This document shows, one piece after another, positions 1 to 10,948 of a stretch of DNA of 12,362 nt (position 1 is the first letter of the stretch; each line of letters starts with the position of its first letter). A program made the position numbers and the translations under genes. Origin of the DNA: Promethearchaeota archaeon (GTDB lineage Archaea > Asgardarchaeota > Lokiarchaeia > Sigynarchaeales > SOKP01); assembly GCA_030620005.1 (NCBI GenBank), contig JAUXAJ010000146.1, positions 1 to 12,362 of the forward strand, in the 5' to 3' direction. The notes below the pieces were generated by a model. It saw only the letters and a program-made list of their open reading frames with translations. It was not told the DNA's origin and made no database searches.

Positions 1-129
1 AGCGCTGGGTCGGACATAAGTGAAGATTTATTAAAAAAATATATAAATCAAATGATTAAAGCTAATGGACCAATTGAATATGACCCTAAAAATGAAACTG
101 TAACTCTAAAAAAGGAGGTTGATATCTAA
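1..129 (+). CDS. C-terminal end of an unrecognised protein (partial)
   Basis: Frame 1 is open from the left edge to TAA at 127-129 and gives 42 residues ending in ...TLKKEVDI. The start lies outside the window. The tail is polar and lysine-rich, with a short beta-like ending (IEYDPKNETVTL) that could be the wing of a small winged helix, but that is only an impression. The stop codon shares one base with the ATG of the next gene (TAATG). The strong ribosome-binding site of that next gene lies inside this reading frame, so the two are almost certainly co-transcribed and translationally coupled. No function can be assigned from this fragment. Confidence 0.7.
   Translation, partial: SAGSDISEDLLKKYINQMIKANGPIEYDPKNETVTLKKEVDI
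114..118 (+). promoter_or_regulatory. Shine-Dalgarno site (GGAGG)
   Basis: GGAGG lies 10 bases before the ATG at 129, inside the end of the preceding reading frame. It fixes the start of the coiled-coil gene and shows that this organism uses Shine-Dalgarno initiation for internal operon genes. Confidence 0.8.
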
Positions 130-854
130 TGGTAAAAGAGATACTTTCGAATCTTGAGCAATTTGAGACCGTAATTGATGGATATTTACAAGTATTAAAG
201 AAAAACAACGACGATATTTATCAAAATTTAAGTGAAATTTGGAAAAACATGCAAGCGGCACAAAAAGAAGACGAAGAATTAACAAAAACAATAGCAGAAC
301 AAAATTCAGAATTAACCGAGTTAAGAGGAGAAGAAGAAGGATTAGATAAAACGATTGAAGGACATAAAGAAAAAAAAGGTGGTTTGAACTCAAAAGTAAC
401 AGAACTGAAAAACACTCTGGAGACAACTTTAAATGACTTGAAAAAACCCCAATTTGAGCTAGAAGATATTATTTCCAAATTAGAAAACGCAAACAACAAA
501 ATAACTGCAAAGGACTCCGAAAAGACACAATTAGATCAGAAAAAGATCGATAATGAAAACAGAGAAGAGAGCTTAAATTTTGAATTCTCAAAAAAAATTG
601 ATGAATTAGACAAAAAAATAGAAACATTAAAACAAGAAAATTTTTTCTCTACATTCTTGATCGAAAATTCAGATGAAGATATGCCCGAAGTTGACATAAT
701 TGCAGCGATAATGGAAAAAGAAACCAGCAACCTTGACGAATTAAAAAAAATGTTAGACGTGCCGCCAATAATGGCCGTACGAACGATTAAGCAACTTGCA
801 GTTAAAGGAATTATCAAGCTGGACGAAAGAAGTGGGAAGGTTTCAATGCCATGA
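129..854 (+). CDS. Coiled-coil protein with C-terminal winged-helix domain
   Basis: This gene encodes 241 aa. Residues about 40-172 are highly charged, rich in E, K, L and N, with heptad-like spacing, and should form a long coiled coil. Residues about 185-241 look like a winged helix-turn-helix: two helices (EVDIIAAIMEKE and NLDELKKMLDV), a recognition-like helix (PIMAVRTIKQLAVKGI) and a short wing (IKLDERSGKVSMP). There is no signal peptide or membrane segment, so it should be cytoplasmic. The start is supported by GGAGG 10 bases upstream and by TAATG coupling to the previous gene. Coiled coil plus winged helix occurs in archaeal DNA-binding regulators and also in ESCRT-like and other protein-assembly factors. 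The sequence does not tell me which applies here. A T-rich stretch follows the stop. Confidence 0.85.
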   Translation: MVKEILSNLEQFETVIDGYLQVLKKNNDDIYQNLSEIWKNMQAAQKEDEELTKTIAEQNSELTELRGEEEGLDKTIEGHKEKKGGLNSKVTELKNTLETTLNDLKKPQFELEDIISKLENANNKITAKDSEKTQLDQKKIDNENREESLNFEFSKKIDELDKKIETLKQENFFSTFLIENSDEDMPEVDIIAAIMEKETSNLDELKKMLDVPPIMAVRTIKQLAVKGIIKLDERSGKVSMP

Positions 855-932: not shown

Positions 933-2684
933 TCATGAATAATATTTTCTAATCTCTTCTATAACTAAATTAACTAAATCATTAACATTTTTTATTGGAT
1001 AAAAGGTAACCTTATCTAATAACTTTTTAAATCTACTTTTTGGTATTTTTGTAGCGCCGATAAAAAATCCAACAATTTTATGGCCGCTATTTGCCAAATT
1101 AATCATCACTTTTTGCGAAGCACCCCAATTATAAATTCCAAAATCAGTTATTATAAAAACAAGAACGGGTCGTTCTGCTTTGGCACATTGAGTTTCAATG
1201 GCTTTTATTGGTAATTGAGTACCTCCTCCTTGATATCGCAACAGCACTTGCTCGGCATTTTGGTAATTAGCAGTCCATTGGCACACATCAGCTCGGTTTG
1301 AAAAATTTATCACGCTAAACTTAGCACCATTATTAGCAGCATGATGAAGCGAAGCAAATGATGCCACTAACGCTGTATGATATGGACCCATCCTTGAATT
1401 TGATTTTTCCGTATAATTCCAGCCCATAGAGCCGGAAGAATCAAGAACGATTAATAAATCAGGAATTTGTTTTTCAATTAAATGCCCAGGACCTTCTTTA
1501 TAAGCCCATTTTCTAGTTGTCATGTTAGGGATAATTACAGGAGAACATAAAAGCGTTTGGACAATGTCTAAGTCTTCCATGGGATCTCCAATTTTCCATA
1601 CTTCAGGATAGATAGGAACCTGTCCGCCAGGTTTTTCTTCAAAGATTTTAATCTCTATTAAATTCTTAGCTAGCCCTCGATACCAAGTTGCCAGGGGATT
1701 TCCATCAATTAAAATTCCTGCTTGTCCTGCTGGCGCTCCAAATTCAGAATATGGAACGTCTTTAGCAAATTCTTCTGCTTTTCGTCGTAATTCATCGTCG
1801 TTGTCTTCTTTCAATTTATCGCAATTTTTACTTTCAAGAGGATTATCCATGATCTCTAACACATCTTCAGGAACCTCTATCATCGCCTGCCCCCTACCAG
1901 GAGCTTTTCTTTTTGCTCTCCCTCGACTTAAACTTCCACCACGACCTATTAGAGCGAACGAATTGTTAATCGAATCCTTTAAATAATACGCAACTTTAGA
2001 CACTTTTTGTTCCCATTTATTATCATCTTCAAAATCGTTTAGGATTACATCAATTACCTTATTTACCATGTAATCCATTTCGTGAAGTGAGTTATCATGC
2101 GTTACATCGACGTTCCACATTTTTTCGTAAGCTCGGAATAAAAAGCCTGCAAATTCGCTCAATTTATTGCCATCGAGATTGCTTTTAATGTGCTTGTACG
2201 TGTTTTGTAGCTCCCATACCATTAGATCAGGATATTTTCGATATAATTTCATGTCAATTATTAAGTCTGCAAATACATTTACGACGATTGGAGCAAAAAC
2301 CTGGTTCACTCTTTTCATTGCTGCTCGCAACAGTTTAGCATTAATAATTCCATCATAAGGTATTGTTTGATAATGAGATACTTCGTGCATTGAAATTGCG
2401 TGAAAATATTTTATATATTCTTCATCTTCTTTAAATAGGGGCGTATTGGCGAGATTCATTGTTATTTGCCATTTTCTTTCAGGGTCAATGTAGAAGCCTT
2501 CTTTATGCGTGTAGTCAAAAACGAAATTTGGCTCGTTTAAAACCAGTTCAACGTAAAATTCTTTACATGTCATTCCCCAAGCTACTCTAGCTAATTCTCT
2601 AATTTTTTTCTCCTTTTCCTTGAGATCCTTTTTACGCATCAAACCTTTACTTTTTTTTTTTGGCCTACTTCTTGGTTCAATCAT
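933..2684 (-). CDS. VWA-domain protein with HExxH metallopeptidase-like N-terminal region (partner of MoxR ATPase)
   Basis: This gene encodes 583 aa. Residues 1-30 are very basic. An HEVSH motif (H100, E101, H104) gives the HExxH zinc-peptidase signature. NVFADLIIDMKL (136-147) follows, in the position where VWA-like putative metallopeptidases carry the conserved N...D helix that may give the third metal ligand. A basic, glycine/arginine-rich linker lies at 247-265. The C-terminal VWA domain (about 408-580) has a complete-looking MIDAS: DSSGS at 415-419, T489 in GGGTQ, and D514 in IITDFG. The gene begins 6 bases after the MoxR ATPase gene ends and has an AAGGA-like ribosome site, so the two form an operon. 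Known MoxR-VWA pairs (RavA-ViaA, CbbQ-CbbO, NorQ-NorD) act in metal insertion or complex assembly. A similar role is inferred here, but the substrate is unknown. Whether the HEVSH region is catalytic cannot be told. An 11-base T run (2651-2661) encodes the PKKKSKG region. Confidence 0.9.
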   Translation of the reverse strand: MIEPRSRPKKKSKGLMRKKDLKEKEKKIRELARVAWGMTCKEFYVELVLNEPNFVFDYTHKEGFYIDPERKWQITMNLANTPLFKEDEEYIKYFHAISMHEVSHYQTIPYDGIINAKLLRAAMKRVNQVFAPIVVNVFADLIIDMKLYRKYPDLMVWELQNTYKHIKSNLDGNKLSEFAGFLFRAYEKMWNVDVTHDNSLHEMDYMVNKVIDVILNDFEDDNKWEQKVSKVAYYLKDSINNSFALIGRGGSLSRGRAKRKAPGRGQAMIEVPEDVLEIMDNPLESKNCDKLKEDNDDELRRKAEEFAKDVPYSEFGAPAGQAGILIDGNPLATWYRGLAKNLIEIKIFEEKPGGQVPIYPEVWKIGDPMEDLDIVQTLLCSPVIIPNMTTRKWAYKEGPGHLIEKQIPDLLIVLDSSGSMGWNYTEKSNSRMGPYHTALVASFASLHHAANNGAKFSVINFSNRADVCQWTANYQNAEQVLLRYQGGGTQLPIKAIETQCAKAERPVLVFIITDFGIYNWGASQKVMINLANSGHKIVGFFIGATKIPKSRFKKLLDKVTFYPIKNVNDLVNLVIEEIRKYYS

Positions 2685-2690
2685 GATCCT

Positions 2691-4457
2691 TCATTGATCT
2701 TGTTGGTCATCTTTTTGCATGTAATCAAGACTTTCAAGAATTCCTCTCAACTTTAAAGCGTCAGAGCCTCCAGAAATTTGAATATTTACAAGAGAATCGT
2801 CATTAGTTCCGGTAACATTTACTTCAATTAGTAAATCCTCCGTTCGTATTTGTTTCGTCTGTCTTTGCTTGAAAGCTTCTTTTAATGGCTGGTCTAAATT
2901 AGAAAATTCTGAAGCAATGTCTGCCCATACTTCCTTCCAATAAGCGTATTTAAAAACAAAATCAGTAACGGTTTGCTTGTAAAGTTCACGATTACACCAA
3001 TTAATTAAATCCGATCTATTTGAAACATCTAGATCTTCAATGAGATAATTTCTCATTCCCGCCAAATCGTCAATATTTCCCGTTTTTGTGGCAGCTCTTA
3101 TTTTTTTCGCAAGTTCACTGTAACTCTTATTGTTGATTGAGTTAACGAATGGAATCAAATCGTATTTAACGATTAAGTCGTTTTTTTGATATCTCTTTAG
3201 TTCAGTTAGTTCTGTTGATTTTGCAATACCATTTCTAAAATTGTCGGCAATTAGATAACAGGACTCGCGGTTTTTAAACCTCTTTAAGATTGTTTTTAAA
3301 ATTTCTTTAGACAGCCCGTATTTATTACCCCAAAAAGGCGATTTTTCTAATTCTCTTTTAACGTACATTACACGGTGTGAAATCACATAAGGCGCGATGA
3401 TACTAACGATATTAATGTCAATATTATCGATTCCTAATAACCACGCCAATGCCTTAGAATATCTTAAAAGATCCTTAGCAACTCTCACGCTTAATATTGA
3501 ATCAATTTTATTACATACATTTTGTGCTGTATTAAAATGGCATCCTTGGCATAGGCCTGCACTTGGCTTTAAATCTTCAGTATTTCCCTTATCTATTCTC
3601 GCACATAACGTGTATTCTCTAATTATTGCGTGAATATAATTGTTAACATCAGGAGGAAAACTTATTTTGTTCACATAATACCAAATTTCCATGAGTTCTT
3701 CTATATTTAAGACTTTTGGAACTTGGACGAGCTCGTCGTAACCTGAATACTTTTCGTCTTTACCTGTTAAAATCAATTGCAAATCGTGGCTTGCCGGCAT
3801 TGAAATCGGAATAGAAATGCCGAATCTATCTAAAAATGGCTGGGACAAAATTCGTATAATTCATGATTCGAATCATAATTCGAATGTCCCAACATCTTGG
3901 GGATTAATTGTAGCGTACAGCGTATATTTATTTATATACATGATAGAATCGTAATATTTTATCTGTCCCTCAGCCAATAAGGATAATAGAATATCTTGAG
4001 CATAGGGCGTTAACCGATTCACTTCATCAATAATTTTCCAGAAATTTAAAACGAATTTTTTCCAAACAACTTCTTCCACACCATCTTTCATTAACTTACC
4101 TAATTTAAGCGTTCCAACAAGCTTTTCTTCCGTGAGCTGCGGATTTGCCCTTACTATTGCGCCTTCTACTTCATTTAATGACGCCCCTGTGAACATCCTC
4201 CCTAATAGCTTTGTAATGGATGTTTTTCCGCCCCCATGCCCACCGATTAAAAGCATTGCCGAGTTAGGTACTATTGCGTTTAATACACATATGGTTAAAA
4301 TTTCTGGTAATTTTTTTGTCTGAATTTTATTTTCCTCGTCTAAATATTTAATTTCCAAGTTTTTTGAGTGCACGAAAAGTTGATTCGCTTGAATTAAATT
4401 GATGATTTTCCAGACTTTCTTTCTTAATTCCTTTTCTTCATTTATTTTTGTCGACAC
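2691..4457 (-). CDS. MoxR-family AAA+ ATPase, interrupted by a 30-nt BHB intron (join 3879-4457 and 2691-3848)
   Basis: Read as complement(join(2691..3848, 3879..4457)), this encodes 578 aa. Exon 1 (193 codons) carries Walker A GGHGGGKT (72-79), Walker B WKIIDE (140-145) and sensor-1 asparagine N185 in TINPQD. Exon 2 starts LSQPFLDRFGISIPI, with the likely arginine finger R201, and has the helical lid SVRVAKDLLRYSKALAWLLG (about 313-332). A cysteine cluster C275, C293, C296, C305 just before the lid suggests a zinc or Fe-S site, which is unusual for the family. Without splicing, the frame meets TGA at 3875-3873 and again at 3863-3861. Both parts are in one frame and together make one ordinary ATPase. 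The start is GTG at 4457, with GAGG 9 bases upstream and an in-frame TAG just before it. The protein probably remodels a target together with the adjacent VWA protein. The alternative, two separate genes with a TTG start at 3848, is unlikely because the cut falls inside a conserved ATPase motif. Confidence 0.9.
3839..3893 (-). ncRNA. Bulge-helix-bulge RNA fold spanning both splice sites
   Basis: This is the full recognition structure for tRNA splicing endonuclease: outer exon-exon helix (3885-3893 with 3839-3847), 4-bp central helix (3881-3884 with 3851-3854), opposed 3-nt bulges (3878-3880 and 3848-3850) and an intron stem-loop (3855-3877). The dimensions match the canonical hBHBh' geometry. 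A perfect 14-bp palindrome inside the intron, ATGATTCGAATCAT, can form a competing 5-bp hairpin (AUGAU/AUCAU, loop UCGA) that would break the inner helix. Confidence 0.85.
3849..3878 (-). other. Predicted archaeal BHB intron (30 nt) in a protein-coding gene
   Basis: On the minus strand the intron reads U, UAUGAUUC, loop GAAUCAU, GAAUUAUA, CGAA, UU. Its flanks pair: GUUGGGACA in exon 1 with UGUCCCAGC in exon 2 (9 bp, one G-U). The central helix is UUCG (exon 1) with CGAA (intron), 4 bp. The bulges are AAU (5' side) and UUU (3' side), each 3 nt. The inner helix is UAUGAUUC with GAAUUAUA, 8 bp with one G-U. Splicing endonuclease cuts between bulge nucleotides 2 and 3, giving GAA|U at 3879/3878 and UU|U at 3849/3848. 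Joining produces GAA-TTG-TCC-CAG (E L S Q), phase 0. The intron holds two in-frame TGA codons. The structure and the restored protein motif are independent lines of evidence that agree to the base. Confidence 0.9.
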
Positions 4458-4466
4458 AAGGAGTGT

Positions 4467-4470
4467 CCTC
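4467..4470 (-). promoter_or_regulatory. Shine-Dalgarno site for the ATPase gene
   Basis: GAGG on the minus strand lies 9 bases before the GTG at 4457. An in-frame TAG just upstream of GTG rules out a longer protein, so the GTG start is well supported. Confidence 0.6.
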
Positions 4471-4479
4471 TACAATTTT

Positions 4480-4513
4480 ATTAAATTAGAAGTATTATTA
4501 AATTAGAAGTATT
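4480..4513. repeat. 17-bp tandem duplication in the ATPase promoter/leader
   Basis: ATTAAATTAGAAGTATT occurs twice head to tail (4480-4496 and 4497-4513) with no mismatch. It lies between a TATA box and the Shine-Dalgarno site of the minus-strand ATPase gene and would straddle the expected transcription start near 4496. It may be a duplicated operator or simply a replication-slippage duplication. Confidence 0.85.
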
Positions 4514-4517
4514 TTTG

Positions 4518-4528
4518 TTATATATTTC
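4518..4528 (-). promoter_or_regulatory. TATA box for the ATPase-VWA operon
   Basis: GAAATATATAA on the minus strand matches an archaeal TATA box preceded by a purine-rich BRE-like context. The spacing predicts a transcription start near 4496 and a leader of about 40 nt, which contains part of the tandem repeat and the GAGG site. Confidence 0.55.
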
Positions 4529-4638
4529 TTTTTTCATGAAATATTTGCATATTAATTTTTATCAATTAAACTCTTTCTGAATTTTCAATAATACCTCAAA
4601 AATGAATGGTGCTTTTATTAAATTCCGATTTCCAAATT

Positions 4639-4646
4639 TTTAAATA
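4639..4646 (+). promoter_or_regulatory. TATA box for the PAS kinase gene
   Basis: TTTAAATA, preceded by CCAAAT (BRE-like), is centred about 25 bases before the ATG at 4667. This spacing puts the transcription start at or next to the ATG, so the message is probably leaderless and 4667 is the likely start codon. Confidence 0.55.
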
Positions 4647-4666
4647 AAAAGCGTTTAACTATTATA

Positions 4667-5182
4667 ATGTTATTAAATCATATAACTAATTCATTTAAAC
4701 TCTTAGTCTATACGATTTATTTACTTGCTAAAATAAAGCATGAAACAAAAATGAATGTTACTGCAGGAGTAAATGAGTTCCTTGATATAGTCCTAGAACA
4801 TGCTTCAGTTTTGATCGCATTCATGGATCCCCAGTTTAATTACACGAAATTTAACCGTGCGCATGCCGAGGTTAACAATCAAGATGCATCATTCTTTCCT
4901 GATAAAAATCATTTTGAATTATGTCCTAATCCAGAGAATGAGGCCATCTTTCAGCGCGTCGTGAAAATAGGAGAACCCGTTGTTGTGAAAGCCAAGCCAC
5001 GTGGACATCCTGAACACCCTGAGTGTGGAATTTCTTATTGGGATTGGAGCTTGATTCCTGTCAAAGACCACTCAATAATTGGAACTGGATTGGTCCTAAC
5101 ATTACAAAATGTTATTGAACATTTAAAAGTAAAACAAGCATTAAAAGAAAGTGAGGCAAGATGGCGAAAAAAGAAAGTTTAG
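4667..5182 (+). CDS. PAS-domain N-terminal part of a sensor kinase (ends by frame change)
   Basis: This frame encodes 171 aa. A PAS domain covers about residues 34-155: FLDIVLEHASVLIAFMDPQFNYTKFN at its start, HFELCPNPENEAIF in the middle, and ISYWDWSLIPVKD leading into the last strands. It is followed by the typical inter-PAS linker VKQALKESEARWR and then ends at once as KKKV-stop. In ordinary multi-PAS kinases that linker runs straight into another PAS domain. The sensing continues in the -1 frame from 5161, so this is best seen as the N-terminus of the kinase below rather than a separate protein. The start at 4667 rests on TATA spacing; a shorter start at 4751 (MNVTAGVNEF) would keep the whole PAS domain. 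The turning point is the heptamer A AAA AAG at 5167-5173. Confidence 0.75.
   Translation: MLLNHITNSFKLLVYTIYLLAKIKHETKMNVTAGVNEFLDIVLEHASVLIAFMDPQFNYTKFNRAHAEVNNQDASFFPDKNHFELCPNPENEAIFQRVVKIGEPVVVKAKPRGHPEHPECGISYWDWSLIPVKDHSIIGTGLVLTLQNVIEHLKVKQALKESEARWRKKKV
5153..5156 (+). promoter_or_regulatory. Possible Shine-Dalgarno site for an internal restart
   Basis: GAGG lies 4 bases before the ATG at 5161, inside the end of the previous frame. The spacing is short, but it could allow re-initiation of the main kinase frame by coupling, as an alternative to frameshifting. Confidence 0.3.
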
Positions 5183-7947
5183 AAATTGAACATCTCCAAA
5201 AGAAGATTGGTGAAGTTAAAGGAATTATCGCAATTACGACCGATATAACCGAAAAAAAACGGGCTGAAATGGCACTACGGAGAAGCGAAGCACAAAAAAG
5301 AGCGATTCTCAATGGAATAACATCAAATATCGCATTTGTTAATGAAAATTTGGAAATATTATGGCTAAATAAAGCATGTGGTGATTCGGTTAATAAATCC
5401 ACAGAAGAAATGATTGGACATAAATGTCACGAATTCTGGGCGGATCCGCAAAAGCCTTGTAAACGGTGTCCAACAATAAAGGCATTCAAAACAAAGAAGA
5501 CGGAACATACTATCATAATAACACCGGACGGAAGGGTTTGGGATGAGAAAGGCGAACCAGTTTTTGACGATGTAGGAAACCTAATCGGAGTGATTGAAAT
5601 AGCACATGATATAACTGAAAGAACTCAAGCTGAGGAAGCACTCCAAAAAAGCAGAGTAAGTCTTGCTAATGCTCAACGAATTGCACATCTCGGGAATTGG
5701 GATTGGGATATAGTAAAAAATGAATTATATTGGTCCGACGAGATTTATCGCATTGCTAATATAAATAAACAAGAATTTGGGGATTCTTATGAGGCTTTCT
5801 TGAATTCTGTTCATCCAGACGATAGAAACTTTGTTCAGAAAAGTGTAGACGACGCTTTATACGAGAATCAACCATATAGCATTGATCACAGAATTCTCTT
5901 ACCAGATGGTTCAATGCGTTTTGTTCATGAACAAGCAGAAGTTACTTTCGATGAGACCGGTAAAGCCATTCGAATGTCAGGAACAGTTCAAGACATCACA
6001 GAGCGTAAACAAATGGAACAAGAATTAAGGAGATTTAATGAAGAGTTAGAACAAATTATTAGAAAAAGGACTAAAGAATTAAAAAAATCCGAAGAAAAAT
6101 ATCAATTGATATTAAATTCGTTGGATGATAATATTTATGTCATTGGCAAAGATTTTAATATGACATTTGCGAACCCTGCTCTAATTAAGTGGCTTAAAAA
6201 AATAGGTCATGAGAAAGATTTTATAGGAAAAAATATATTCAAACTTTTTCCATTTTTACAAAAGGATAAGGTTACTGACGAACTTAGGCGAGTATTTAAG
6301 AGTGGCAAAATGCTAATTACGGAGGATCGTGTTGAAATTCAAGGTGTAATTTATTTTTCAGAAACACGAAAAATACCAATACTAGTTGACAATGAAGTAA
6401 AGAATGTAATAATTATTGTCAGAGATATTACCAAGAAAAAGAAAATAGAACAGAAATTAAAAGAATCCGAAGAAAAATATCGTGTTCTTTATGAGGATGC
6501 CCCGAATGCGTATTTTTCGATTGGTCCAGATAAAACGATCAAGAAGTGCAATAATATGGCTTTAAAACTATTGGGTTACGATAATGAAGAAATGATGAAA
6601 CTGACAGTTTTTAACCTTTATGCTGATACTCCCGATGGAGTAACGAAAGCAAGAATATGTTTTCAGCGGTTCTTGAATGGAGAACAGATACAAGACGAAG
6701 AGCTTCAGATGAAACATAAGAATGGCGATCCCATATGGGTAAGCCTATCAGTGAACGCTGTAAAAGACCAAGAAGGAAATGTGATAGAATCAAGAAGCGT
6801 GATCATTAATATCACGGAACGCAAGGAAGCCGAACAGAAAATAAAATATCAAGCAATGTTAGTAGATAATGTTTCTGATGCGATTATCTCATCAGACTTA
6901 GACTTCAATATTATTAGCTGGAATAAGGCGGCAGAATCGATATATGGGTGGAAAGCAGAGGAAGTGATTGGAAAAAATGTTATGGAAACTATTACGGTTG
7001 AATATCCTTATGATGATATTGATAAAGTCCTTAAGCAATTCTCTGAAAAAGGATTCTGGAAAGGAGAAGTTATCCAACCTCGGAAAGATGGTAAAAAAAT
7101 TAATGTATTATCCTCAGTTTCGATTATTAAAGATTCAACAGGGAATCCCATAGGTGTTGTGGCATTAAACCGTGATATTACCGAGCGCAAGAAAGCAGGA
7201 AAAAAATTAAAAGAGTCAGAAGAAAGATATCGTAAAGCCTACGAACAAGCTAATTTTTTCAAGGACTTATTTGTTCACGATATGGCTAATATATTAAACG
7301 CACTTCAAATGTCTGCAGACTTACATTTTAAATTTCATGACAAACCTGAAAAGATAAATGAAAGCAATAAGTTAATGGGCATATTTAAGAGTCAACTAGA
7401 CAACGGAACGAAATTAATTTCTAACGTGCGAACATTGTCCAAATTAGAAGAAAACAAAATCTCATTAAAAGAAATTAATGTATATAATTATATAGAGGAA
7501 GCAAAAACATTTACTTTAAATAATTTTCCAGAAAGAAATATTAATATTATTGTTCGGATTCCCGATAAGAACATGGTAGTTCATGCAAATGATTTGTTAT
7601 TAGAGGTATTTAGAAATCTTTTGAATAATGCCGTGAAATACAACGATAATCCGGTAATTGGAATTATCATTAATGTTTCCAAGGAACAAAAAGAAGGCAT
7701 GAATTACATGAAACTAGAATTTATTGATAACGGGCAGGGCATATCCAACGATCGGAAACCATATATTTTTAAGAAAGGGCATGAAGAGTATAAAGGTAGT
7801 AAGGGCATGGGAATCGGATTATCGCTGGTAACAAAAATCGTAGAAAGTTATGAAGGAAAAATTTGGGTCGAGGATAAAGTCAAGGGAGACCACACTCAGG
7901 GGAGTAATTTTATAGTATTACTACTTGATCGTTCAAAAATGATTTGA
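5161..7947 (+). CDS. Multi-PAS sensor histidine kinase
   Basis: This frame encodes 928 aa. The first 35 residues are only the last strand of a PAS/PAC unit (GEVKGIIAITTDITEKKRAE). Five PAS units follow at about 44-155, 165-284, 312-426, 437-555 and 561-676, each ending in a D/N-ITER/K-type linker. The first has a C89...C100-x2-C103 cysteine group. The DHp region carries the likely phosphoacceptor H706 in LFVHDMANILNALQ. The ATPase domain has an N box (NLLNNAVKYND, 819-829), G1 DNGQGI (856-861) and G2 KGMGIGLSLV (881-890). There is no membrane segment, so it should be a cytoplasmic sensor. There is no receiver domain and no response regulator nearby, which is common for archaeal kinases. The 22-base overlap with the preceding PAS frame and the slippery A AAA AAG point to one protein made by a -1 shift, or to a recent one-base deletion. 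Confidence 0.9.
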   Translation: MAKKESLEIEHLQKKIGEVKGIIAITTDITEKKRAEMALRRSEAQKRAILNGITSNIAFVNENLEILWLNKACGDSVNKSTEEMIGHKCHEFWADPQKPCKRCPTIKAFKTKKTEHTIIITPDGRVWDEKGEPVFDDVGNLIGVIEIAHDITERTQAEEALQKSRVSLANAQRIAHLGNWDWDIVKNELYWSDEIYRIANINKQEFGDSYEAFLNSVHPDDRNFVQKSVDDALYENQPYSIDHRILLPDGSMRFVHEQAEVTFDETGKAIRMSGTVQDITERKQMEQELRRFNEELEQIIRKRTKELKKSEEKYQLILNSLDDNIYVIGKDFNMTFANPALIKWLKKIGHEKDFIGKNIFKLFPFLQKDKVTDELRRVFKSGKMLITEDRVEIQGVIYFSETRKIPILVDNEVKNVIIIVRDITKKKKIEQKLKESEEKYRVLYEDAPNAYFSIGPDKTIKKCNNMALKLLGYDNEEMMKLTVFNLYADTPDGVTKARICFQRFLNGEQIQDEELQMKHKNGDPIWVSLSVNAVKDQEGNVIESRSVIINITERKEAEQKIKYQAMLVDNVSDAIISSDLDFNIISWNKAAESIYGWKAEEVIGKNVMETITVEYPYDDIDKVLKQFSEKGFWKGEVIQPRKDGKKINVLSSVSIIKDSTGNPIGVVALNRDITERKKAGKKLKESEERYRKAYEQANFFKDLFVHDMANILNALQMSADLHFKFHDKPEKINESNKLMGIFKSQLDNGTKLISNVRTLSKLEENKISLKEINVYNYIEEAKTFTLNNFPERNINIIVRIPDKNMVVHANDLLLEVFRNLLNNAVKYNDNPVIGIIINVSKEQKEGMNYMKLEFIDNGQGISNDRKPYIFKKGHEEYKGSKGMGIGLSLVTKIVESYEGKIWVEDKVKGDHTQGSNFIVLLLDRSKMI

Positions 7948-8062: not shown

Positions 8063-8078
8063 GGATTTATAAAAGAAA

Positions 8079-8096
8079 AAAAAGTGTTAACTTTTT
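8079..8096. terminator. Possible bidirectional terminator hairpin
   Basis: AAAAAGT, GTTA, ACTTTTT forms a 7-bp stem with a 4-nt loop and a T tract at its 3' side on either strand. It sits between the ends of two converging genes, the kinase (+) and the HAD phosphatase (-), which fits a shared terminator. The stem is nearly all A-T. Confidence 0.35.
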
Positions 8097-8194
8097 AGTA
8101 TAAAGAGTTTAATTTATCTCCAATTTGAGTAAGGAGGATATTAAACCTTTTTTCTCTTTCCTTGAATCGAGTAGAGTAAATTGAAAACGAAATA

Positions 8195-8896
8195 TTATTT
8201 ACTTTGTATTAACTCAACGATTTCATCCAATTTATCGATAACAAAATCCGGTGAATATTCCCAATCGTCATAACCATCAGGATATTTATTCATATTTCTT
8301 CTTAACAAGCAAACGTGAATATTAGCTCTTTTAGCGGCTAATACATCAACGATCGAATCGCCTATCATGATAGCGTTTGACTTATTTTTGTCGAAATTTA
8401 GTCTTTTTAAAATAGAAAGAATACCCCTTGGTGATGGTTTAGCAAGTGATTGATCCTTATCGCTTGAAAGCCCAAAAATCTCGTCAAAACAATTAGTTAA
8501 ATTGAATTCTTTTGTAATAAATTCAACTATGTAATCGGCTGTATTTGATATTATGGCAGTTTTATTGCTGTTGTTTTCGTTAATTTCCTTCAATATTTTC
8601 TTTACATCGTTATAAAGATGCATTTCTTTATTTTTAACGAGAACTTTTCGATATTCGAAATCAATTGCGTCAAAATACCTCCAAAAATTGTCTAAATCAG
8701 AAGCACCCCACTTTTTTAAGAGGTTGATGTATTCGTTCCCAGAGAACCAAATCTTAGATCTTTCTTGTAGTTCAGGTATTTTGTTAATTGAACCTTTTTT
8801 TAATGCCTCAACTAAAATATTATCAAAATAAAACCTAGGATTTGGAATGTGCAATAAACAATTATCTAAATCAAATAAATAGTAATCAAAATTCAT
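8195..8896 (-). CDS. HAD-superfamily hydrolase (subfamily IA-type phosphatase)
   Basis: This gene encodes 233 aa, a usual length for the group. HAD motif I is YLFDLDNCLL, with nucleophile D9 and acid D11. Motif II is S117 in AIISNTA. Motif III is K153 in LAKPSPRG. Motif IV is MIGDSIVDVLAAKRA, with D180 and D184. A helical cap lies between about 18 and 95. The set is complete, so an active Mg-dependent phosphatase of the phosphoglycolate phosphatase or pyrimidine 5'-nucleotidase type is expected; the substrate cannot be read from sequence. ATTTAAAAAT on the minus strand (8921-8930) is a plausible TATA box about 29 bases before the start. The gene lies 65 bases after the small cysteine protein on the same strand, so either its own promoter or read-through is possible. 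Confidence 0.9.
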   Translation of the reverse strand: MNFDYYLFDLDNCLLHIPNPRFYFDNILVEALKKGSINKIPELQERSKIWFSGNEYINLLKKWGASDLDNFWRYFDAIDFEYRKVLVKNKEMHLYNDVKKILKEINENNSNKTAIISNTADYIVEFITKEFNLTNCFDEIFGLSSDKDQSLAKPSPRGILSILKRLNFDKNKSNAIMIGDSIVDVLAAKRANIHVCLLRRNMNKYPDGYDDWEYSPDFVIDKLDEIVELIQSK

Positions 8897-8961
8897 CTAT
8901 ACAAAAAGTAATGAAAAATAATTTTTAAATTATCTTTCAATAATTGTCAATTAGATATTTT

Positions 8962-9351
8962 TTAGAAATAACCGACGTGACCTAAATTTTTACCTTTTTC
9001 ATCCAAAGCATATACAAGTCCCATTGATAGAGCAGCCTCATCGTCAATTTCTTTTTCATCGTCAACCCCCTTACTTTTTATATTTTTTAAAGGTCTTGCA
9101 ACTTTTTTAATAGTTTCTAGCTTTAATTGAAAGACTCCGTTACATTTTTTGCATCTAATGTGGATATACTTTGTTTGTTTTTTGTCGTCTTCTTGTTTTT
9201 CTATCTTTAATGGTTCTAACAATTTTTGATCTTCGTTATCACACCCTATCAAAAAACACTGATCTAGGCTAATTTTTTCCATACCTCTTCTTGCTAACGA
9301 GATCCAAGCGTAACTCGGTATTTCGAGCCATAAATCTTTATTTTCTTCCAT
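8962..9351 (-). CDS. Small protein with paired cysteines (possible zinc ribbon), unknown function
   Basis: This gene encodes 129 aa. The visible marks are C32-x4-C37 and, after a charged stretch, HIRCKKC with C67 and C70. This gives a likely four-cysteine zinc site spread over about 40 residues. The N-terminus (LWLEIPSYAWISLARRGM) is aromatic and the end (GHVGYF) is well defined, but I do not recognise the family. There is no signal peptide or membrane segment. The gene is followed after 65 bases by the HAD gene on the same strand. A-T rich TATA-like sequence lies on the minus strand at about 9365-9378, so the message could be leaderless. The protein could bind nucleic acid, but that is only the usual use of such ribbons. 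Confidence 0.75.
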   Translation of the reverse strand: MEENKDLWLEIPSYAWISLARRGMEKISLDQCFLIGCDNEDQKLLEPLKIEKQEDDKKQTKYIHIRCKKCNGVFQLKLETIKKVARPLKNIKSKGVDDEKEIDDEAALSMGLVYALDEKGKNLGHVGYF

Positions 9352-9587
9352 ATTTTAAAGAAATTTATATAATTTTTAAGAATTATGATTATATGTTATA
9401 GATTTTATACTATTTTTGTTTTGATTTCATTTGTAATTTATTAGTTTCTTCTATATTGATTCGTATTGCTCTTTTCCATTTAAAAAGCTTTCAAAAGATA
9501 CCTATTCGAACTAAATTTAATAAGTATTTTATTTTTATTTTTTCTATATGATAGTTAAGCTTAATTATCTGCTTTCATTATTTTTGC

Positions 9588-9601
9588 TTAATAATATATA
9601 T
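9588..9601 (+). promoter_or_regulatory. TATA-box region for gatC
   Basis: TTAATAATATATAT lies 14-27 bases before the ATG at 9615. The upstream part of the box has the right spacing for a leaderless start at the ATG. No Shine-Dalgarno site is seen before this ATG, which agrees. Confidence 0.5.
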
Positions 9602-9614
9602 TTTTTGATAAAAA

Positions 9615-9920
9615 ATGTCTAAAGACGACGAATTATCTAAGGAAACTATTGACCATATTTCAAAACTAGCGTTATTAGATTTATCAGATGAAGAAAAAGA
9701 GAAATTAACAAAGCAATTAGGAAATATTCTTTCTTATTTTAAAAAATTAAATGATTTAGATACTAGTGATGTCGAACCTACGACTCACCCAATAGACGGC
9801 TTGAAAAATGTTTTTAGAGAAGATATTCCTTGGAAATCGCTTTCTAACGAGGAAGCCCTAAAAAATGCAGAATATAAGGAGAAAGGCTATTTTAAAGCTC
9901 CAAGGATATTAAAAGAATGA
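9615..9920 (+). CDS. gatC: Asp-tRNA(Asn)/Glu-tRNA(Gln) amidotransferase subunit C
   Basis: This gene encodes 101 aa, the normal length for GatC. Family marks are the N-terminal helix pair (ETIDHISKLALLDLSDEEKEKL), the Q-LGNILSYFKKLNDLDT segment, VEPTTHP (53-59), NVFREDIP (65-72) and GYFKAPRIL (91-99). GatC is the small belt-like subunit that holds GatA and GatB together in the GatCAB enzyme, which amidates Asp-tRNA(Asn) or Glu-tRNA(Gln) in the cytoplasm. Here it stands alone. The upstream genes run the other way, and the next gene downstream is convergent, ending 29 bases away. gatA and gatB are therefore not in an operon with it in this window. A TATA box at leaderless spacing suggests it has its own promoter. 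Confidence 0.93.
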   Translation: MSKDDELSKETIDHISKLALLDLSDEEKEKLTKQLGNILSYFKKLNDLDTSDVEPTTHPIDGLKNVFREDIPWKSLSNEEALKNAEYKEKGYFKAPRILKE

Positions 9921-9949
9921 ATGATTAAAAATGTTCTAAGAAAACTATT

Positions 9950-10948
9950 TTATTCTTTATACATTTTTGTTAACATTCTAATGGCTTCTGCCATATCTTT
10001 TAAGGCTTTTTTTTTTTCTTTTAATGGCATGTTATATAAATCATCTTCGGATCTAATGCCAATATCTTGGGTTGAAACCAAGTTCTTATATTTTTTAATT
10101 ACCAAAAGAGTAATATAAGTCTCATATTCTTCGAAAGTTTCTAAAAGTTCTGGATTGTTTTTAATTTTTTCCCATAATTCTAAAGTTTCGAAAGAACGCA
10201 TGCCAATATCAATCCTGAACCAACTAATTGGGAATAAAATCTCTCTTTTTACACCCATTTCTATTACCTTAATGTTTTCTTTATCGATATAAAATTCAGG
10301 GATAACATCTTCCTTGAACACGATTCTGTCGTTCATGATGTATAGATTGGCTGCATCTTTAGACGTGCAAACGATGCCTGTTGCGAAACCTTTAGCCATC
10401 CGTAGTCGATCAGCAATATCCTCTAATCTTGAGCCTTGATAATGTAAACTTCTTTTTTTTGTTCCATGAAATGATATTTTAATCTTCTTCCTTCCTTTAT
10501 CATCGACAATAATTTGAGGAAATAAGTCCGAATCCCTTGTTTTTTTATGAGCTAACATTAATTTATTAATGAGCTCGTGTTCTAATTTTAATCCGGGTAT
10601 GACCGTATTTTGATTTAAGAACGCATCTACTTCGAAATCTATAATACCATAAAATAATTTTTTCTCTTTCATGATTTTGCGAATGTCCTTTACAATGGTT
10701 TCAATTAAGGCTTCGGGATCTTCGCGAATAGAATCGTACTGTTTTGAAGTAAACGTGTCTATTTGATCCGAAATGCCTTCTTCGTGATAAAATTCAGCCC
10801 AACTCATTTCTGTATAAACATTACCTTCAGAGTATAGATCATGTGAAGCGTCAATGCTTACAATAGTTTTACTTCCTCCTAATTCTACACCTTTTTTTGT
10901 TCCAATAGCAAGGATTGCTGCTGGAGGGTTATGAAATTCCAAGGTCAA
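9950..10948 (-). CDS. Conserved-looking protein of unknown function
   Basis: This gene encodes 332 aa. I do not recognise the family. The N-terminal part (about 1-55) has a beta-rich look with ELGGSKTIVSIDASHD. The middle (about 98-235) mixes strands and helices, with RLRMAKGFATGIVCTSKDAANLYIMND as the most family-like stretch. The C-terminal 80 residues are helical and charged. There is one cysteine (C194), no metal-binding group, no signal peptide and no membrane segment. The start is uncertain: the frame is open from further upstream, no ATG or Shine-Dalgarno site is seen, and TTG at 10948 or 10942 are only candidates. It ends 29 bases from the end of gatC in convergent orientation. An A-rich run near 10005-10020 encodes KEKKKALK. 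Confidence 0.75.
   Translation of the reverse strand: MTLEFHNPPAAILAIGTKKGVELGGSKTIVSIDASHDLYSEGNVYTEMSWAEFYHEEGISDQIDTFTSKQYDSIREDPEALIETIVKDIRKIMKEKKLFYGIIDFEVDAFLNQNTVIPGLKLEHELINKLMLAHKKTRDSDLFPQIIVDDKGRKKIKISFHGTKKRSLHYQGSRLEDIADRLRMAKGFATGIVCTSKDAANLYIMNDRIVFKEDVIPEFYIDKENIKVIEMGVKREILFPISWFRIDIGMRSFETLELWEKIKNNPELLETFEEYETYITLLVIKKYKNLVSTQDIGIRSEDDLYNMPLKEKKKALKDMAEAIRMLTKMYKE

Follow-up and report, generated by a model that had tools for sequence, protein, structure and literature searches.

How does a gene whose conserved core is broken by stop codons give an ATPase? The question is raised by a MoxR-type gene of the window, by which we mean the whole stretch of 12,362 nucleotides analysed here. 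The two halves of the gene are in one frame, with 30 bases that hold two TGA codons between them, as the original prediction had stated and as we confirmed base for base. The features needed for the argument are listed below, a slash marking a predicted cut.

4457..2691, minus strand: MoxR-type AAA+ ATPase gene, interrupted by 30 nt at 3878..3849
3879..4457, minus strand: MoxR exon 1, 193 codons, GTG start at 4457, C-terminal end ...INPQDVGTFE
2691..3848, minus strand: MoxR exon 2, begins LSQPFLDRFG (TTG at 3848) and runs to the stop codon
3849..3878, minus strand: predicted bulge-helix-bulge (BHB) intron, 30 nt, TTATGATTCGAATCATGAATTATACGAATT, in-frame TGA at 3875..3873 and 3863..3861
3885..3893, minus strand: outer helix, 5' strand (exon 1), GTTGGGACA, pairs with 3847..3839, 9 pairs
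3839..3847, minus strand: outer helix, 3' strand (exon 2), TGTCCCAGC
3881..3884, minus strand: central helix, 5' strand (exon 1), TTCG, pairs with 3854..3851 (intron), 4 pairs
3851..3854, minus strand: central helix, 3' strand (intron), CGAA
3878..3880, minus strand: 5' bulge AAT, predicted cut AA/T, between 3879 and 3878
3848..3850, minus strand: 3' bulge TTT, predicted cut TT/T, between 3849 and 3848
3855..3877, minus strand: inner hairpin, TATGATTC (3877..3870), loop GAATCAT (3869..3863), GAATTATA (3862..3855)
933..2684, minus strand: VWA-domain partner gene, directly downstream of MoxR, whose relatives serve as the uninterrupted control

The first open reading frame (ORF) of the gene matches the Pfam profile AAA_5, and the gene is also typed by AAA_3. 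When the exons are joined, the AAA_5 score rises from 37.8 to 45.2 bits and the match (residues 68-202, profile positions 2-139 of 139) spans the join. The expectation of a gene family new to such introns is therefore borne out, this being a MoxR-type AAA+ ATPase and not cbf5. The next gene downstream is VWA-like (VWA_2 at 23.3 bits, slightly below the Pfam cut-off of 27), so the locus looks like a MoxR-VWA pair. A protein search returned 702 MoxR relatives, and the 120 listed share 74-78% identity over 98-100% of the query. Among those listed with an organism in the source name, most are labelled Promethearchaeota and a few Lokiarchaeota, Thorarchaeota, Hodarchaeota or Hermodarchaeota. The Asgard host proposed as a possibility is supported by the genome collection, where all 45 MoxR loci come from entries titled Lokiarchaeota or Lokiarchaeia. 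Elsewhere in the window, a 171-residue ORF (4667..5182) runs, in another frame, into the beginning of the gene for a PAS histidine kinase of 928 residues (5161..7947), and may be a frameshifted N-terminal part. A 241-residue ORF (129..854) of this Lokiarchaeal contig has a coiled-coil look and a sub-threshold match to the Pfam ALIX V domain (20.6 vs 30.8 bits).

The helix lengths, bulges, loop and coordinates claimed for the BHB were all found as described. This canonical structure (3893..3839) is the minimum-energy fold of the 63-nt junction stretch, at -21.7 kcal/mol, and is retained when folded within a 102-nt stretch. Its inner helix, TATGATTC/GAATTATA, has 8 pairs and a 7-nt loop; a 9-pair version with a 5-nt loop is equal in energy. 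On each strand, read 5' to 3', the bulge directly follows its half of the central helix, which is also the arrangement in archaeal pre-tRNA introns. The tRNA splicing endonuclease EndA is described in a passage of PMC2738675 as cutting between the second and third bulge residue. Applied to the window's fold, this rule gives the in-frame exon join GTFELSQPFLDRFG and the protein GTFE-LSQPFLDRFG, as predicted. The uninterrupted junction, INPxD[VI]GTF[ED][LM][SG]xPFLDRFG, is present without insert in 118 of the 120 listed relatives, the other 2 giving no pattern match. Excision of 30 nt from 3878, 3877 or 3876 leaves an identical mRNA, and we set the intron start at 3878 because the BHB geometry singles it out. 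A mirror-image register, with the bulges 5' of the central helix and the intron at 3882..3853, was also considered. It yields GTLILSQPF, which mismatches the family, and the minimum-energy fold is the canonical one.

When the exons were held fixed and only the 30 nt were shuffled, 200,000 times, central and inner helices as good or better arose at a frequency of 1.5e-5 for the window's insert. We saw no intein features in the insert, which has two in-frame stops in 30 nt and no open frame for a splicing domain. Group I and group II introns are catalytic RNA folds of a few hundred nucleotides; the insert is 30 nt long, and Rfam gave no match in the window at gathering scores. ARAGORN found no tRNA in the window.

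The best explanation, to which we assign a probability of about 0.92, is that the 30 nt at 3878..3849 are a BHB intron of a Lokiarchaeal MoxR mRNA that would be removed by EndA and the ligase RtcB. EndA would cut the mRNA at both three-nucleotide bulges, RtcB would ligate the exons, restoring GTFELSQPFLDRFG, and a 30-nt circle or linear piece would be released. Only the spliced mRNA would give a working ATPase, because the unspliced frame stops at the second intron codon, before the LDRFG of the AAA+ core. Cleavage, joining and any regulatory role are predicted steps, and the structure in the window, the precision of the junction, the recurrence of the insert and the codon choice of the exons can be read directly from the DNA. 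In the sequence-level features that we tested, the window's insert would belong to the BHB intron class, from whose canonical form the free folds of the relatives' inserts depart. The original proposal of a protein-coding BHB intron is thus supported by a junction that restores the family motif and by BHB-capable 30-nt inserts in the moxR genes of other genomes.

The alignment of relatives with and without the segment, proposed as a check, gave stop-bearing 30-nt inserts in the moxR genes of 3 genomes, among 105 matching in the 227 genomes of the phylum that were searched. This count is insensitive to introns that lack a stop or change the frame, and leaves out one short fragment of G140 (residues 415-577) with a listed stop. 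Two of the inserts, in G132 (locus L028, the same gene as L076; Loki_b31) and G131 (L078), lie exactly at the window's position and differ in sequence. The third, in G107 (L077), lies in the Walker A motif between lysine and threonine (GGHGGGK/TTLV). All three genes regain the family sequence once the 30 nt are taken out. The four inserts known as DNA are each 30 nt long and carry different stops: two TGA in the window, TGA in L076, and TAA in both L078 and L077. In both exons dN is 0.13-0.25 and dS is saturated (undefined or 1.9-3.4), a pattern indicating that the exons are under purifying selection, and none of the four interrupted genes has a further internal stop.

Aligned on the window's register, all four central-helix pairs are possible in every one of the four inserts. 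Pairs 15-44, 23-39 and 27-35 have changed on both sides and are still paired in all three same-site inserts; pair 20-42 is compensated between the window and L076 and broken in L078. The motifs of the relatives are less perfect than the window's. Folded freely, L076 adds a fifth central pair that would move the 3' cut by one nucleotide, out of frame, so that an in-frame cut requires the window's four-pair register; L078 forms one of its four central pairs; and in L077 the 3' bulge faces one additional A and the 5' bulge is wider. These would be relaxed BHB motifs, a kind reportedly accepted by the two-subunit EndA type, according to a passage of PMC6379350. In the shuffle test the frequencies were 6.5e-5 for L076, 3.9e-4 for L078 and 1.05e-4 for L077. 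Same-position inserts have 17-19 of 30 positions in common pairwise, vs 6-10 of 30 with the Walker A insert, a similarity that is partly forced because the inserts pair with conserved exons. A mechanical BHB scan of 529 kb at loose settings gave 46 hits, many at the ends and starts of neighbouring genes. Ten had an intron of 45 nt or less, of which four records (three genes, since L028 = L076) are MoxR and the other six were dismissed by eye without a homology test. The scan lacks sensitivity as a screen, having missed L077 on account of the additional A that faces its 3' bulge.

Because its two strands come from exon 1 and exon 2, the outer helix is independent of the insert. Contiguous outer-helix pairs number 9, 9 and 6 in the three carriers vs 0-5 in 37 intronless loci, in a comparison of 40 distinct junction-spanning loci (misfits to the junction pattern left out, one mismatch allowed at the first position) that treats loci as independent and ignores shared ancestry. 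Without the contiguity rule the ranges overlap, with 9, 9 and 7 pairs in carriers vs 3-8 in intronless loci. The leucine codon that opens exon 2 is TTG in 3/3 carriers vs 2/37 intronless loci. One of these two exceptions, L031, is the sister of the carrier L078 (SH-aLRT 100 in a tree of 43 genes) and retains the pairing codons, which is consistent with precise intron loss in its lineage. The outer-helix test does not discriminate at the Walker A site, where 5 outer pairs, the number in L077, are also found in 4 of 42 loci that have no insert at that position.

Protein databases hold further traces of such genes. We pooled 158 fragment clusters (P0121-P0278) from short-query protein searches, some of which end at contig ends. 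Fourteen of them, the window's included, end at GTFE plus 0-1 residue, and 46, first-exon fragments found among P0170-P0254, end within 9 residues past an RGH motif where the family continues PQLTEEK. The next commonest end point has 3 clusters; counted by alignment end instead, the numbers are 15 for the GTFE position and 45 for RGH. A single cluster can comprise many sequences (41 members in one), and the set is biased toward stop-bearing carriers because only these show up as fragments. RGH/PQLTEEK is likely to be a second conserved intron position in moxR. A frame stopping at RGH was seen in 0 of the 99 genomes that match the 107-residue RGH fragment (227 searched), vs the 46 protein clusters, and this fragment had no match among viral contigs. 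Each of the 14 clusters at the window's position has a frame that closes within the first two codons of the insert; selection may have favoured such an early stop because it cuts short the translation of unspliced mRNA.

In the 43-gene tree, the three genes with an insert at the window's position belong to different branches, and their grouping as a single clade was rejected in a quick tree (p-AU 1.6e-68). A quick tree of 104 N-terminal pieces, a selection comprising 15 with the window's position, 31 with RGH, 1 with Walker A and 57 without intron, requires at least 8 changes for the window's position and at least 17 for RGH; its well-supported branches force 3 and 4 changes, respectively. Such scatter of the carriers implies repeated gain of the intron, horizontal spread or many losses. 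L076 stands in the tree beside intronless genes up to 93% identical to it. Compared with intronless close relatives, this gene (6001..7722 of L028) is a mosaic, with about 20% nucleotide difference over the greater part of exon 1 and, for the most part, less than 10% in exon 2, and the breakpoint coincides with the intron. Further upstream, positions 1-2400 are again 93-97% identical to intronless relatives. Adjoining exon 1 is a unique block that encodes an 873-residue ORF (3299..5920, plus strand) with two CxxC..HH..C-type motifs, which we take to be HNH-like; the ORF has no HNH match in Pfam. Its family is multi-copy, with matches in 31/227 genomes, and in G001 a copy sits between the VWA and moxR genes. 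By eye, in the ORF lists, such an HNH-like neighbour accompanies one carrier of four (L028), with none in the window or in the analysed stretches of L077 and L078. The intron of L028 looks as if it had been acquired together with its flanking exon, by homing-like co-conversion, and a chimeric assembly could also give this mosaic. Around the moxR locus, L028 also has a ParE-type toxin-like ORF (2270..2554) and, at 8077..10116, an AAA_15 ATPase followed by a small ORF, which suggests a hot spot for mobile genes.

Other explanations of the interruption have to be weighed against splicing. A stop within a conserved motif, on a metagenomic contig, could reflect a decaying pseudogene or an assembly error, that is, an inactivating insertion or a mis-assembly, and the sharp mosaic at the L028/L076 insert is what a chimeric assembly might also leave. 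We consider this very improbable in view of same-position inserts in three genomes on separate branches and in 14 protein clusters, of a length of exactly 30 nt, and of exons that evolve as constrained coding sequence. Even less credit is due to ribosomal bypassing on the model of phage T4 gene 60, in which the RNA would stay unspliced and the ribosome would skip the 30 nt. The stop in the second insert codon and the hairpin after it fit a hop, and in the window one tRNA could, through wobble, read both the TTA ahead of the stop and the TTG where translation would resume. Take-off and landing codons are, however, unmatched in L076 (GAA or ACA vs AAT or TTG), in L078 (GAA or TTT vs AAT or TTG) and in L077 (AAA vs CAA or ACC), and a hop has no need of conserved exon-intron pairing.

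True gene fission, by which the halves would be translated separately and then assemble, is about as improbable as bypassing. Exon 2 could start at its own TTG at 3848, and in both the window and L078 a TTG stands exactly there; this codon doubles, however, as part of the outer helix. The break would also fall inside one AAA+ domain (AAA_5, 68-202, runs across the join) and in L077 at the Walker A lysine, and fission does not require precise 30-nt BHB inserts. The least probable alternative is stop-codon recoding, with the insert translated through. The insert length is a multiple of three, as recoding needs, but the stops vary between TGA and TAA among the four inserts, and ten non-conserved residues would fall inside Walker A or beside the LDRF motif. 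In addition, neither the window's position nor RGH carries additional residues in those of the 120 listed full-length relatives that fit the pattern. Excision of a BHB intron is the reading that we retain.

The predicted splicing calls for a matching machinery. RtcB and at least two EndA-family genes are present in 6/6 genomes, three of them the carriers G107, G131 and G132. Of the two EndA paralogues in G107, one shows Ser at the place of the His in 1a79, the M. jannaschii EndA. For the other, chain 3p1z_B gave the best alignment, and it retains the His that is mutated in 3ajv (H133A); both structures are Aeropyrum pernix EndA according to a passage of PMC6379350. This pattern, with His kept in one paralogue and Ser in the other, suggests the two-subunit type of EndA. 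With introns allowed, ARAGORN called introns of 9-37 nt in 10 of the 20 tRNAs in 1.95 Mb of G107 and G002.

The neighbouring gene was used as a control: the VWA partner gave 104 matches in 101/227 genomes, none with an internal stop, and no match among viral contigs. At G112:C9:93582-95402 the VWA gene matches as two overlapping pieces in one open frame, maybe an in-frame insertion. In a wider comparison of 2110 ORFs with 2.5 Mb, which included 0.75 Mb of the carrier G107 and covers genes with a relative in the compared DNA, stop-bearing gaps with more than 2 references occurred only in MoxR (44-46 references each). Twelve weaker events (1-2 references, mostly of low identity or upstream of starts) were dismissed by eye. 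No other interrupted gene being seen in the 2.5 Mb, the phenomenon looks confined to one gene, a restriction that a general splicing capacity does not account for.

Taken together, the data allow a joint reading that we offer as tentative, with rather less than even confidence. Lokiarchaeal moxR may be a recurrent landing site for a minimal BHB intron of about 30 nt in its most conserved AAA+ motifs (Walker A, RGH/PQL and GTFE/LSQPFLDRF). The intron might spread between lineages by homing-like recombination together with flanking exon. In L028, exon 1 would then have been replaced as a tract as far as the intron, next to a gene for an HNH-like endonuclease. MoxR output would be tied to the tRNA-splicing machinery, the stop in the first or second intron codon silencing the unspliced message.

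Lokiarchaea are among the archaea thought to be closest to eukaryotes. If the mRNA is spliced as predicted, archaea of this kind apply a tRNA-splicing system to mRNA. The carriers, the non-carriers, a probable loss and several positions in one gene would form a natural series on the gain, movement and loss of introns in a protein gene without a spliceosome. Annotation splits these genes in two (60 of the 158 pooled fragment clusters end at one of the two moxR positions), and Asgard gene sets would therefore need BHB-aware gene calling. In the open-licence literature, which leaves subscription papers and preprints aside, we found neither a BHB intron in MoxR nor one in a protein gene of an Asgard archaeon. 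A passage of PMC7714728 gives cbf5 as the only further BHB intron reported, the reference list of PMC12397907 cites the same known cases, and PMC12918454 reports circular rRNA of Asgard archaea. According to PMC2738675, putative introns have been predicted in other protein genes, among them some of 12 bp in an archaeal virus, their splicing being unproven.

Several known systems resemble the interrupted moxR genes in part, and the comparison places them most closely beside cbf5. Translational bypass in T4 gene 60 takes the ribosome past a gap that contains an early stop and a hairpin. The moxR gap, which has both and would likewise be passed over, is alike in effect; unlike gene 60, the moxR relatives lack matched take-off and landing codons and have exon-intron complementarity instead. 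The BHB intron of the cbf5 pre-mRNA in Crenarchaeota is said to have been described by Watanabe in 2002. Its relaxed BHB motifs and lineage-specific loss are recorded in a passage of Yokobori 2009 (PMC2738675). The two cases are alike in concerning a protein gene, in the shortness of the intron, in a BHB or relaxed BHB at the exon-intron borders, in a cut between bulge nucleotides 2 and 3, in a patchy presence with lineage-specific loss and in a host with two-subunit EndA, here predicted from two paralogues. They differ in that the gene is here a MoxR AAA+ ATPase, the phylum Promethearchaeota, and the length 30 nt in 4/4 DNA-level inserts; moxR also has more than one insertion position, and the carriers of one position are not a clade. 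The original description of the intron as very short holds in that 30 nt is short, but the size is not exceptional for the class, archaeal tRNA introns measuring 11-175 nt and two Staphylothermus cbf5 introns 36 bp in a passage of PMC2738675.

The BHB introns of archaeal tRNA and rRNA present the same structural substrate, presumably to the same enzymes; unlike theirs, the moxR exons are coding, and codons of a conserved motif make up the outer and central helices. The 5' UTR BHB of Haloferax HVO_1309, as described in a passage of PMC7714728, shares with moxR the action of EndA on an mRNA (predicted for moxR), but its site lies in an untranslated leader, whereas the moxR coding frame needs the removal. 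The moxR intron would thus be of a known kind, a BHB pre-mRNA intron of the cbf5 type, and, as far as our searches of the literature go, its gene, its phylum, its several positions and its recurrent turnover are new.
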